Assembly: GCF_900114615.1 (NCBI RefSeq)
Contig: NZ_FOTS01000035.1
Location: 1-55,380 of the forward strand
DNA length: 55,380 nt
Direction of reading: 5' to 3'
From: Pelosinus propionicus DSM 13327
Lineage (GTDB): Bacteria; Bacillota; Negativicutes; DSM-13327
Shown here piece by piece: positions 15,319 to 29,183 of the stretch. The first letter of the stretch is position 1. Every line of letters begins with the position of its first letter. The position numbers and the translations under genes are program-made. The notes beneath the pieces were generated by a model. It ran no database searches and was not told the DNA's origin. It worked only from the letters and a program-made list of their open reading frames with translations.

Positions 15319-15741
15319 ATGATGAAAATAGCGATTGCTGCCAATAAAAAAGGCAAAGTATTAAAAGAAAAAGTCAAAGCATTTTTAGCAGAGCGTCATT
15401 ATGAAATGATGGATCAATCATCTTCTGATATTTTTGAAGCTACAATGAATATTGTTGAAGCAATCAAAAATAAAACAGCAGATAAAGGGATTGTGATTGA
15501 TGAATATGGTGTTGCACCATTTATGATTTCCACTAAAAATCATGGAATTATTTGTGCACCTGTTTATGATGATTATACTTCAAAAATGACGAGAATGCAT
15601 AATGCTACGCAAATCATTACGTTAGGTTCAGCGATTTCAGCAGAACCGTTTGCTTGTCAATTGGCTTTGAACTTTGCTGAATCTGAATATGATGGTGGCA
15701 GACATCAAGTTCGTATTGATATGTTGAATAAAATGGTATAA
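15319..15741 (+). CDS. lacA: Galactose-6-phosphate isomerase, LacA subunit
   Basis: This 140-aa member of the RpiB/LacA/LacB family forms, with LacB, the isomerase that turns galactose-6-phosphate into tagatose-6-phosphate. It matches LacA rather than LacB: it lacks the CGTG motif, has GIVIDEYGVAPFM in its place, and ends YDGGRHQVRIDMLNKMV. The start is ATG 15319 or the adjacent ATG 15322, after GAGG. It is the first gene of the cluster, 18 bases before lacB. Confidence 0.93.
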   Translation: MMKIAIAANKKGKVLKEKVKAFLAERHYEMMDQSSSDIFEATMNIVEAIKNKTADKGIVIDEYGVAPFMISTKNHGIICAPVYDDYTSKMTRMHNATQIITLGSAISAEPFACQLALNFAESEYDGGRHQVRIDMLNKMV

Positions 15742-15759
15742 AAGGATGGGGGATAAAAA

Positions 15760-16275
15760 ATGAAAATAGCAGTTGGTTGTGATCATATTGTTACAGATAT
15801 TAAAGATAAAACCGTAAAATATTTAAATGGAAAAGGGCATGACGTTATTGATTGTGGAACCTATGATTTTGTTCGTACACATTATCCGATTTTTGGTCGA
15901 AAAGTTGGTGTAATGGTTGCTAAAGGTGAAGTAGATATTGGGATCTGCATCTGTGGTACTGGTGTAGGAATTAATATAGCAGCAGAAAAGGTCAAGGGTG
16001 TACGTTGTGCGTTAGTCAGAGATGTGCAGACTGCTGTGTATGCGAAAGAGGAGCTTAATGCAAATGTTATTGGTGTGGGCGGTAGGGTTGTCGGCGAAGG
16101 AACAATTGAATATATAGTGGATGCTTTTATCGCTGCAAAATATAATCCGACCGCTGAGAATCAAGCATTAATTAAGAAAATCGATGGCTTGATCGGTGAG
16201 AATGACACGATAGAAAATGATGCGATATTTGATGAATTCCAGAAAAAATGGGATGAGGGCTTTTACAACGATTAA
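15760..16275 (+). CDS. lacB: Galactose-6-phosphate isomerase, LacB subunit
   Basis: This 171-aa RpiB-type subunit starts MKIAVGCDH and carries the active-site [10 protein letters not shown] segment with C65, the RpiB catalytic cysteine position. It ends with the [10 protein letters not shown] tail typical of LacB. It partners LacA in the first step of the tagatose-6-phosphate pathway. GGATGGGGG precedes the ATG. It is tightly spaced to lacA and the aldolase gene, so all are expected on one transcript. Confidence 0.95.
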
Positions 16276-16299
16276 TTTATAAAAGGAAGCTGAAAAAAT

Positions 16300-26690: not shown

Positions 26691-27676
26691 GTATTTTAGT
26701 TCTCGGTGGTGCAGGTTATATTGGCTCACATGCTGTATATCAGTTAGTCGAACAAGGGCATGAGGTAGTTGTGCTTGACAATTTGCAGACTGGTCATGAA
26801 CAAGCTGTTCATTCTAAGGCAACCTTTTATAACGGAGATGTTCGTGATAAAGAGTTTTTAAGGCATGTATTTGCAAAAGAAGACATTCATACTGTAATGC
26901 ATTTTGCTGCTAGTTCCACGGTAGGAGAATCCATGGAAAATCCTCTTAAATATTTTGATAACAACATGTATGGAGCACAAATTTTGTTAGAAACGATGAA
27001 TGAATTTCATATTAAAAATATTGTGTTTTCTTCTACGGCAGCAACTTATGGCGAGCCCAAACAGGTACCTATTACAGAAGATATGCCGACGAATCCAACT
27101 AATCCTTATGGCGAAAGCAAGCTCGCCATGGAAAAATTAATGAAATGGTGTGATGTTGCATATGGTATTAAATATGTATCTCTCCGTTATTTTAACGTAG
27201 CAGGAGCTAGATGCGATGGAAGAATTGGTGAAGACCATGCAATTGAAACCCATTTAATACCCCTTGTGCTGCAGGTGGCATTAGGTAAAAGAGAGTATAT
27301 AACAATTTTTGGTGAGGACTATCAAACAAAAGATGGGACTTGCATTCGTGATTACATTCATGTGGAAGATTTGATTGAAGCTCACATTTTAGCAATGAAT
27401 TACTTACGGAATCAAGGTGAAAGTGATATCTTCAATCTTGGCAGCAGCCAGGGTTTTTCAGTTAAGGAAATTGTTGAAGCAGCAAGAGCAGTCACCAAAC
27501 ATCCGATTCCAATTAAAATAGGTGAAAGAAGAGCAGGCGATCCTAGTACCTTAATTGCTTCTGCAGCGAAGGCAAAAGAAATACTAGGTTGGCAGCCAAA
27601 ACGTACTTTAATCCAGCAAATCATTACAGATGCTTGGAATTGGCATCAAAATCATCCAGAAGGCTATAATGATTAA
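26687..27676 (+). CDS. galE: UDP-glucose 4-epimerase
   Basis: This 329-aa SDR-family enzyme interconverts UDP-galactose and UDP-glucose with bound [12 protein letters not shown] at the N-terminus is the NAD site and YGESK (Y144, K148) the catalytic pair; the [11 protein letters not shown] segment with its SST also matches. AAGGAGG precedes the start. The start codon overlaps the stop of galK (ATGA), so it belongs to the gal operon. Confidence 0.96.
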
Positions 27677-27689
27677 TAAGGAGATCAAT

Positions 27690-29183
27690 ATGAATATCTG
27701 TCAAGTAATTCAGCAATTGATTGATAACGCATTAACATTAAAATTTATTGAGCAGGAAGATGAAATATATGTAAGAAATCAGATATTATGCCTTCTGGGA
27801 ATGAATGAGTTTATTATACCTGAAAAAATTAAAGAGAACGAACATACAATACCTGACTTGCTGGAAAAGTTGGTAGACTATGCATGGGAAAATGGTATCA
27901 TTGAAGATTTGTTTGATGAAAAAGAAATCCTAGCAAGTCGTATCGTAAATTGTTTTATGGCGACGCCCTCCACCGTTAATAAGAGTTTCTATGAAAAATA
28001 TCACAAGAATCCAGTAATGGCAACGGATTACTTCTATGGACTGAGCAAGAATAGTAATTATATTCAAACAAAGCGGATTGCCAAAAACATTAATTATCAA
28101 TCTCAAACGGAGTATGGAACATTAGACATTACGATCAACTTATCAAAGCCAGAAAAAAACCCTAAAGACATTATGAAGGAAAAGGGAATAAAAAGCACAA
28201 ATTACCCAAAATGTTTGCTGTGTGTGGAGAATGAAGGTTATGCAGGGCGAATCGGGCACCCTGCTCGATCTAATCATCGTTTGGTTCATTTGAATTTGGT
28301 TGGTGAACCTTGGTATCTGCAATATTCACCTTATGTTTATTATAATGAGCATTGTATTGTGCTTTCTAAAGAACATCGTGATATGAAAATTGATCGTCAG
28401 GGACTGTTGCGTTTGGTATCTTTTGTAGAGCAGTTTCCGCATTATTTTATCGGCTCTAATGCCGACTTGCCAATTGTAGGAGGATCTATTTTATCCCATG
28501 ATCATTATCAAGGCGGCAGATATGAGTTTGCTATGGCAAAAGCCGCAGATGAGTATCTTTTTGCATTACAGTCCTTTCCCAATGTGAAAGGTGCAATTGT
28601 GAAGTGGCCCATGTCTGTTATTCGTTTAAGAAGTAAAAGGGCAGATGAGTTGGTAGCTGCTGCTGACCGTATTCTTGAGTCTTGGAGAAATTATGATGAT
28701 CCAAGTGCAGATATTTATGCCTATACAGGAAAAACGCCACACAATACGATTACTCCCATAGCTAGAAAGCGGCATGATGTACTGGAATTGGATCTTGTAT
28801 TACGCAATAATCGTACCAGTGATGAACATGTCTTAGGAATCTTTCATCCTCACAGCGATGTGCAGCATATAAAGAAAGAGAATATTGGTTTGATTGAAGT
28901 GATGGGATTGGCAGTCTTGCCTGCTAGACTGATCCCTGAACTTAAGGAAGTAGAAAAATATATACTCGGTAACCAACATGAAATTGCAGAGTATCATAGA
29001 TCCTGGGCAGAACAGCTGCGTGAAAAGTATCAAAAACAAGCCAATAACGAAAATATTGGAGATATTCTTAGAAAGGAAGTAACGGCTAAATTTATGCGGG
29101 TTTTAGAAGATGCTGGCGTCTTCAAACGCAATGAGCAGGGAATAGCTGCCTTTAAAAGATTTATAAAAACAAGTAAATTGTAA
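27690..29183 (+). CDS. galT: Galactose-1-phosphate uridylyltransferase, type 2
   Basis: This 497-aa enzyme moves UMP from UDP-glucose to galactose-1-phosphate. Length and sequence match the larger GalT type of Firmicutes: KCLLCVENEGYAGRIGHPAR, then HDHYQGGRYEFAMAKA around the catalytic histidines, and a C-terminal RVLEDAGVFKRNEQG. The start is ATG 27690 after AAGGAG; a frame extending upstream to 27630 overlaps galE and is rejected. It follows galE by 13 bases and ends at a terminator. Confidence 0.94.
   Translation: MNICQVIQQLIDNALTLKFIEQEDEIYVRNQILCLLGMNEFIIPEKIKENEHTIPDLLEKLVDYAWENGIIEDLFDEKEILASRIVNCFMATPSTVNKSFYEKYHKNPVMATDYFYGLSKNSNYIQTKRIAKNINYQSQTEYGTLDITINLSKPEKNPKDIMKEKGIKSTNYPKCLLCVENEGYAGRIGHPARSNHRLVHLNLVGEPWYLQYSPYVYYNEHCIVLSKEHRDMKIDRQGLLRLVSFVEQFPHYFIGSNADLPIVGGSILSHDHYQGGRYEFAMAKAADEYLFALQSFPNVKGAIVKWPMSVIRLRSKRADELVAAADRILESWRNYDDPSADIYAYTGKTPHNTITPIARKRHDVLELDLVLRNNRTSDEHVLGIFHPHSDVQHIKKENIGLIEVMGLAVLPARLIPELKEVEKYILGNQHEIAEYHRSWAEQLREKYQKQANNENIGDILRKEVTAKFMRVLEDAGVFKRNEQGIAAFKRFIKTSKL

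Follow-up and report, generated by a model that had tools for sequence, protein, structure and literature searches.

The question raised by the locus described here is how a diderm Firmicute could bring galactan, a side chain of pectin, across its outer membrane and on into the cell. The window, i.e. the whole stretch of DNA that was analysed, comprises 55,380 nucleotides of a Pelosinus propionicus DSM 13327 contig (NZ_FOTS01000035.1). At positions 15319-29183 it carries genes for a galactanase of family GH53, a porin with an SLH domain, a phosphotransferase system (PTS) of the lactose family (LacF, LacE), the glycosidase LacG, the tagatose pathway and Leloir enzymes. The original prediction described this run as a complete galactan-to-tagatose route with a dedicated porin, built from Gram-positive parts, in which porin and PTS take the place of SusCD. 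Its coordinates were right: the run is continuous, every gene is encoded on the + strand, and the genes were confirmed one by one by Pfam and NCBIfam profile matches (Table 1). Judged from its sequence, the run is probably a laterally acquired cassette for beta-1,4-galactan, with the dedicated porin and GH53 as the outer module and the PTS, LacG and the tagatose pathway as the inner route.

The distribution of the genes was surveyed in 380 Negativicutes genomes of 102 genera (numbered with G; G000 is the window genome). Of these, 37 genomes in 14 genera contain GH53, 36 of them with a match that exceeds the Pfam cut-off. The matches above the cut-off span 43 contigs, which exclude the match of G108 under the cut-off. 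On 37 of the 43 contigs an SLH porin of the clade described below lies within 3 kb of GH53. The distance is no more than 0.9 kb on 35 contigs, of which three have a GH53 fragment, or a GH53 truncated at the contig end, as the porin's neighbour. The gene order is thus not unique to this strain, and its recurrence in many Negativicutes genera makes it more than chance. Carriers among the matches listed include Propionispora, Anaerovibrio, Lucifera and Selenomonas. The porin gene is divergent from GH53 in G129 and upstream on the same strand on the other porin-GH53 contigs; the gap amounts to 1.5 kb on G295:C27, and in G293 about 2.9 kb separate the porin from a GH53 array downstream of it, with lacE flanking the porin on the opposite side. 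Tandem GH53 genes were seen as five matches in G293 (L057) and four in G297 (L064). GH53 without a linked porin was found on six contigs, three of which look like real absences (G295:C17; G323:C87, where GH53 is divergent and a porin fragment lies about 5 kb off; G283:C6, where GH53 is broken). G276:C136 and G297:C7 are cut by contig ends, and the sequence of G267:C51 fell outside the neighbourhood check. Among the best 80 of 577 named GH53 loci, 12 were from Negativicutes, 10 of them with an SLH porin; no SLH porin matched in the 68 other loci, and LacE at more than 50% identity was present in one of these, Bacillus sp. WMMC1349 (L164), in the order lacG-lacF-lacE-GH53 without a porin.

The GH53-linked porins are also set apart by their sequences. 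The 37 linked porins group as one clade, with an SH-aLRT support of 100 and a single label change, in a tree of 86 SLH porins; this was a quick tree with long branches among the unlinked rows, and its 49 unlinked porins were the best-scoring ones, not a census. The tree omits porins shorter than 350 aa and copies identical over their last 300 residues; row L186 and the GH53-linked porin of L074 are one gene, and L186 was therefore counted as linked. With a profile of four linked porins, 12 linked porins of 13 genomes (three of them also in the profile) scored at least 288 bits and every other SLH porin at most 188. A match of the linked type at E 1e-53 was obtained in 50 of the 380 genomes, including 34 of the 37 with GH53. 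Tryptophan makes up 4.2% of the barrel in the linked clade, compared with 2.05% in its sister clade and 1.7% in other SLH porins, differences for which the tests ignore kinship. In a MAFFT alignment of distant sequences the linked clade keeps aromatic residues, seldom seen in the other groups, at positions 123, 159, 229 (where the window has N), 259 and 362, the last two being Trp; these residues would line the pore. The AlphaFold2 model of the window porin has 16 main strands at a mean predicted local distance difference test (pLDDT) score of 83, and its closest solved fold is OmpM1 (8bym; Z 30.0, root mean square deviation 2.9, 306 aligned residues, 19% identity), the next group following at about 20. 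The profile, the model and the OmpM1 match show that both traits of OmpM/SLH porins, the SLH domain and the 16-strand barrel, are present.

The porin-GH53 pair is constant and the inner-membrane module beside it varies: a lac PTS with tagatose genes in differing orders, an ATP-binding cassette (ABC) importer with GH35 (G323), or a LacY-type symporter with GH35 and GH2 (G154). LacE was found at E 1e-100 or better in 33 genomes, 32 of which also carry GH53, and GH53 is present in each of the 11 genera with LacE; lacE, porin and GH53 genes are adjacent in many Selenomonas loci. In the sole LacE genome without GH53 (G019, L069) gatY directly follows lacE, where its relatives hold the porin and GH53 in between, as if the pair had been lost or gained together. 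Since the porin is kept beside GH53 where the importer is of the ABC or LacY type, and since the pair is jointly missing in G019, the partner of the porin is GH53 and not the PTS; its predicted dedication stands for GH53, by clade and by proximity, and falls away for the PTS. Because nearly every LacE genome carries GH53, galactobiose is a better guess than lactose, so that the PTS, rightly assigned to the lac family by LacE, LacF and LacG, is probably of a galactobiose type. A lactose operon as such was rejected as the leading explanation, given this co-occurrence.

The prediction of a GH53 enzyme with a carbohydrate-binding module was borne out by a signal peptide (by eye), the GH53 domain and a C-terminal stretch (residues 476-619) matching the galactanase domain structure 2xom (E 2.7e-22), presumably a CBM61. 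Both Glu positions that we take to be catalytic could be aligned to solved galactanases (1r8l, and 2gft, in whose chain one of them is Ala). Secretin matches, one in G000 and one to three in each of six genomes, favour neither a periplasmic nor a released GH53.

In the proposed mechanism the Trp-rich, SLH-bearing 16-strand OmpM-type barrel would let galactan or galacto-oligosaccharides across the outer membrane, and GH53, exported by Sec and with its substrate held by the CBM61-like domain, would cut the polymer to galactobiose. A PTS phosphorylates its sugar at entry; by the reasoning of established pathways, LacF and LacE would take in and phosphorylate galactobiose, and LacG would split the product into galactose-6-phosphate and galactose. 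Galactose-6-phosphate would then pass through LacAB, the PfkB kinase and the GatY-type aldolase of the tagatose pathway, and free galactose would be handled by the Leloir genes, with a second galK serving in this strain. An RpiR-type regulator would control the unit via a candidate operator in the rpiR-lacA gap. The sequences themselves show the gene content, the linkage of porin and GH53, the porin clade, the co-occurrence of LacE with GH53, the position ahead of resident genes and a conserved operator-like site; it is the substrate, the direction of flow, the selectivity of the porin, the induction and the place of GH53 that we infer here. If GH53 acts in the periplasm, as is said of the enzyme of Erwinia, chains of greater length must get through the porin; with a released GH53 it is oligomers that pass. 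Galactobiose fits best as the PTS substrate because import of longer oligomers would yield cytoplasmic galactobiose that carries no phosphate and that no enzyme of the operon could split. The products of the B. subtilis galactanase GanB are galactotetraose, galactotriose and galactobiose according to the accessible part of PMC5472308, and given this range galactobiose as the end product of GH53 is an assumption. Of the complete route originally predicted, the tagatose and Leloir genes are present; the galK gene of the run has an in-frame TGA, so that the second galK is needed.

The divergent RpiR-type regulator belongs to the unit; G050, G020, G160 and many Selenomonas loci likewise have rpiR facing away from their first lac gene. 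The operator pattern TTYCA-N5/6-YGRAAAC was derived from lacA promoters, where matches are partly circular. It was found at 73 sites, compared with 1.8 expected, in 52 partly overlapping loci; the background of 600 random stretches (8 exact) was taken from the same loci and may contain true sites. The sites mostly precede rpiR/lacA, lacE, gatY and some GH53 or porin genes, and exact sites precede GH53 genes in G293, G295, G258 and G297. A promoter scan gave no excess over shuffles.

It is unlikely that the porin is a common OmpM pore for general diffusion and tethering, adding more non-selective pore during galactan use without any specialisation. OmpM1 of Veillonella parvula, the protein with the closest fold, is described as a general porin resembling OmpF in the accessible text of PMC10628300, and 12 other SLH-porin matches exist in the window genome; however, one clade of 37 linked porins with doubled tryptophan and aromatics particular to that clade would be needless for a generic pore. 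The frequency of GH53 in LacE genomes, the consecutive lacE-porin-GH53 genes of many Selenomonas loci and the Bacillus row with lacG-lacF-lacE-GH53 leave little chance that the PTS, LacG and the tagatose part serve mainly lactose and that the porin-GH53 pair is a separate galactan module standing beside them by chance, even though LacE and LacG match lactose-family models, porin-GH53 occurs without nearby lac genes in G154, G323 and second Selenomonas clusters, and G019 has lacE without GH53. A locus decaying in this strain, with the galK stop as the onset of loss and the whole route no longer working, appears very improbable: the TGA speaks for it, a sense codon standing at this site in the galK of three other genomes and in the second galK of the window genome, but the remaining frames of the run are open, that second galK (G000:C78:42872-44023) is uninterrupted, and the TGA is possibly a base-calling error.

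Several observations weigh against a dedicated galactan cassette. Related SLH porins are held by 16 of the 343 genomes without GH53, and in a VIA-align comparison of the porin model sugar porins and general porins tie at Z about 20, so that the structure shows no selectivity. For ScrY and ScrA, a porin and a PTS in one operon, a construct without the porin was still reported to grow on sucrose in the part of PMC11251922 that is accessible, and a porin phenotype can therefore be mild. No tagatose genes were seen beside the G020 cluster, and neither lacAB nor lacF in the examined parts of G124. The identities of porin and GH53 do not co-vary (GH53 87% and porin 58% in G020; GH53 64% and porin 68% in G050). 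LacE, LacF and LacA scored slightly under the strict NCBIfam cut-offs and LacC far under, and substrates were thus assigned by context. Of 11 clusters whose porin-GH53 pair is separated from the lac genes or precedes them, only two (G124, G135) have an exact operator-like site upstream of the porin, which weakens the operator as proof of one regulon. Finally, a terminator-like hairpin lies between GH53 and galK, so that the run may not be one transcript.

The reading as a galactan cassette includes its lateral acquisition, for which the congeners provide the reference. GH53 was absent from all seven congeners and from both of the other family members in the profile survey. The order of a small gene (hyp115), galE, galT and a 3D-domain gene is found in 7/7 congeners, preceded by lepB in six; the G004 contig breaks off after the small gene. 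galE directly follows the small gene in G001, G002 and G007, and one small extra frame lies between them in G005 and G006. Efflux-type genes occupy this place in G003 (L226 and L231 are congener loci with other genes there). In G004 it holds lacA, lacB, gatY and pfkB, which are 89-95% identical to those of the window, and an epimerase-like gene. On this gene order galE and galT are resident genes of the genus, and the rpiR-to-galK block of the window occupies a variable spot in front of them. The genes shared with G004 may have been in the genus for longer than the remainder of the cassette. LacE of the window is 96% identical to that of G010, 88% to G020, 84% to G050 and 80% to G161; the topoisomerase-like protein encoded at 44008-46200 (named by eye) is 67-70% identical to those of the same four genomes and 88-97% to those of three congeners. 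The cassette copy of G010 lies on a 10-kb contig of an incomplete genome, for which misbinning is possible. The cassette-free site in congeners together with these identities points to lateral acquisition of the block. Base composition was tried as a sign of transfer and did not set the cassette apart: its G+C content is 37.1%, that of the left flank 40.4% and that of the right flank 38.4%.

The Gram-positive lac operon (lacABCD-FEG) resembles the run in LacA, LacB, LacF, LacE, LacG, a PfkB-type kinase and the chemistry. Its LacD aldolase is of class I and its regulator LacR of the DeoR type. The run differs by a class II GatY-type aldolase, an RpiR-type regulator and the added GH53 and outer-membrane porin; the lac-family PTS with LacG and the LacA/LacB pair are present and a LacD-type class I aldolase is not. 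With this aldolase and regulator the run is mosaic in make-up rather than a replica of the Gram-positive operon. Bacillus sp. WMMC1349, with its lacG-lacF-lacE-GH53 row, is a monoderm counterpart without a porin. The gan operon of B. subtilis, also monoderm and porin-less, has the sugar permease ganSPQ and GanA instead of a PTS, and ganSPQAB uses the GanB galactanase (accessible part of PMC5472308).

In diderms, the gan loci of Dickeya and other Enterobacterales (GanL porin, GH53, ABC importer, GanA) likewise combine a galactanase with a galactan porin. They have a LamB-family porin, an ABC importer and GanA, whereas the window has an SLH/OmpM porin, a PTS, LacG and the tagatose pathway. In the Erwinia gan locus studied by Delangle et al. 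in 2007 the galactanase is reportedly periplasmic, and a porin mutant is said to fail to use galactan. In Rahnella and Pantoea, the two gan loci scanned, a LamB-family porin is close to GH53. The enterobacterial gan system is a parallel solution with an unrelated porin, and membership of the run in this family was rejected because both porin and importer families differ. GanL of Dickeya is given as a galactan porin in the accessible part of PMC3544676. The scr operon has a sugar porin (ScrY) and a PTS (ScrA) in one gene run, as in lacF-lacE-lacG-porin here, a likeness of layout only: it serves sucrose without an exported glycanase, in contrast to a polysaccharide and GH53 in the window, and the porin families differ. 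ScrY is a LamB-like porin. Veillonella OmpM shares the SLH domain and the 16-strand barrel with the window porin, which belongs to a separate Trp-rich clade linked to GH53. SusD had no match in G000 and matches in only 3/379 genomes of the class (contigs G098:C186, G268:C124 and G245:C1, real or contaminating), and neither SusC nor SusD was found among ten run proteins scanned with Pfam. A SusCD-like system was rejected because SusD is absent from the genome, which agrees with the predicted replacement of SusCD by porin and PTS. The parts are known individually (porin with PTS, galactan porin, OmpM); the combination appears new, as in the literature searched no report was found of a porin-GH53/lac-PTS pairing, of the linked porin clade or of a lac PTS as a galactan system in Negativicutes.

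The features are compiled in Table 1. Just upstream, at window positions 7934-12876, pectin-related genes (kduI, kduD, kdgT, a kdgK-like kinase and an IclR-type regulator) fit a pectin-side-chain niche. The 220-base porin-GH53 gap contains an inverted repeat (23433-23473; arms of about 12 bases, by eye), largely kept in G010, which is a possible attenuator or mRNA stabiliser.

Table 1. Features of the galactan gene run of P. propionicus DSM 13327 in window coordinates
Feature	Position	Strand	Evidence and remarks
RpiR/MurR-type regulator	14319..15149	-	HTH_6 PF01418 and SIS PF01380 above cut-off; divergent from lacA
Candidate operator TTYCA-N5/6-YGRAAAC	15207..15224	+	rpiR-lacA gap; pattern read by eye from lacA promoters
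lacA, galactose-6-phosphate isomerase subunit	15319..15741	+	PF02502; PRK08621 157.4 bits, slightly below cut-off 164
lacB, galactose-6-phosphate isomerase subunit	15760..16275	+	PRK08622 261.8 bits, above cut-off 234; TIGR01119 below cut-off
Class II tagatose-bisphosphate aldolase, GatY type, not LacD	16300..17154	+	PRK12737 450 bits, above cut-off; TIGR01858 435 of 443.6
PfkB/1-PFK-type hexose kinase, putative tagatose-6-phosphate kinase	17157..18095 (open reading frame opens 17130)	+	TIGR03168 above cut-off; LacC model TIGR01231 221 of 410 bits
lacF, PTS IIA, lactose/cellobiose family	18268..18582	+	PF02255; TIGR00823 124.7 of 137 bits
lacE, fused PTS IICB, lactose family	18618..20306	+	TIGR00394 597.8 of 614.4 bits; TIGR00410 above cut-off
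lacG, GH1 6-phospho-beta-galactosidase	20336..21763	+	TIGR01233 649.5 bits, above cut-off
SLH-bearing OmpM-type porin, GH53-linked clade	21938..23299	+	SLH above cut-off; AlphaFold2 model; OmpM1 8bym Z 30.0; clade
Exported endo-beta-1,4-galactanase	23520..25382	+	Signal peptide (by eye); GH53 PF07745 425 bits; Big_4 PF07532; 2xom match, residues 476-619
Terminator-like hairpin, GH53-galK gap	25421..25438	+	6 G-C pairs then T5; consensus match only
galK with in-frame TGA at 26430-26432	25506..26690 (start uncertain; open reading frame opens 25419)	+	Profile match; codon comparison
galE	26687..27676	+	TIGR01179 above cut-off; same site in 7/7 congeners
galT	27630..29183	+	TIGR01239 above cut-off; same site in 7/7 congeners

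Beyond galactan, the best unlinked porins score up to 414.6 bits in the class-wide survey, and most of the stronger ones make up the sister clade, in which 7/16 rows lie inside evident substrate operons (among them loci L213, L216, L212, L208, L211) and 9/16 have no clear substrate. The sister porins of G005 and G162 are found with rhamnose genes, MFS_2 and GH4 or GH28, that of G002 beside GH43 and an alginate-lyase-family protein, and four with peptide-type or SBP_bac_5 ABC genes (G306 by eye; one protein each scanned in G311 and G313). Tentatively, and with less than even confidence, OmpM-type tethering porins of diderm Firmicutes may have radiated into substrate-dedicated pores inside substrate operons (galactan, rhamnose, GH43/alginate lyase, SBP_bac_5/peptide ABC). 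The combination of porin and GH53 with PTS, ABC or LacY-type modules indicates that the systems for uptake across the outer and across the inner membrane are building blocks that evolve separately. The 'lactose' PTS of Negativicutes such as rumen Selenomonas is suggested to be a galactan system. A dedicated porin would explain the uptake of pectic galactan by Negativicutes, nearly all of which are without SusD, and, as OmpM-type porins are described as general pores and tethers, a glycanase-bound clade would, within the literature searched, be a first case for substrate specialisation among them. If true, each dedicated OmpM-type pore would tie nutrient choice to outer-membrane attachment and thereby fill the role that SusCD has in Bacteroidota.

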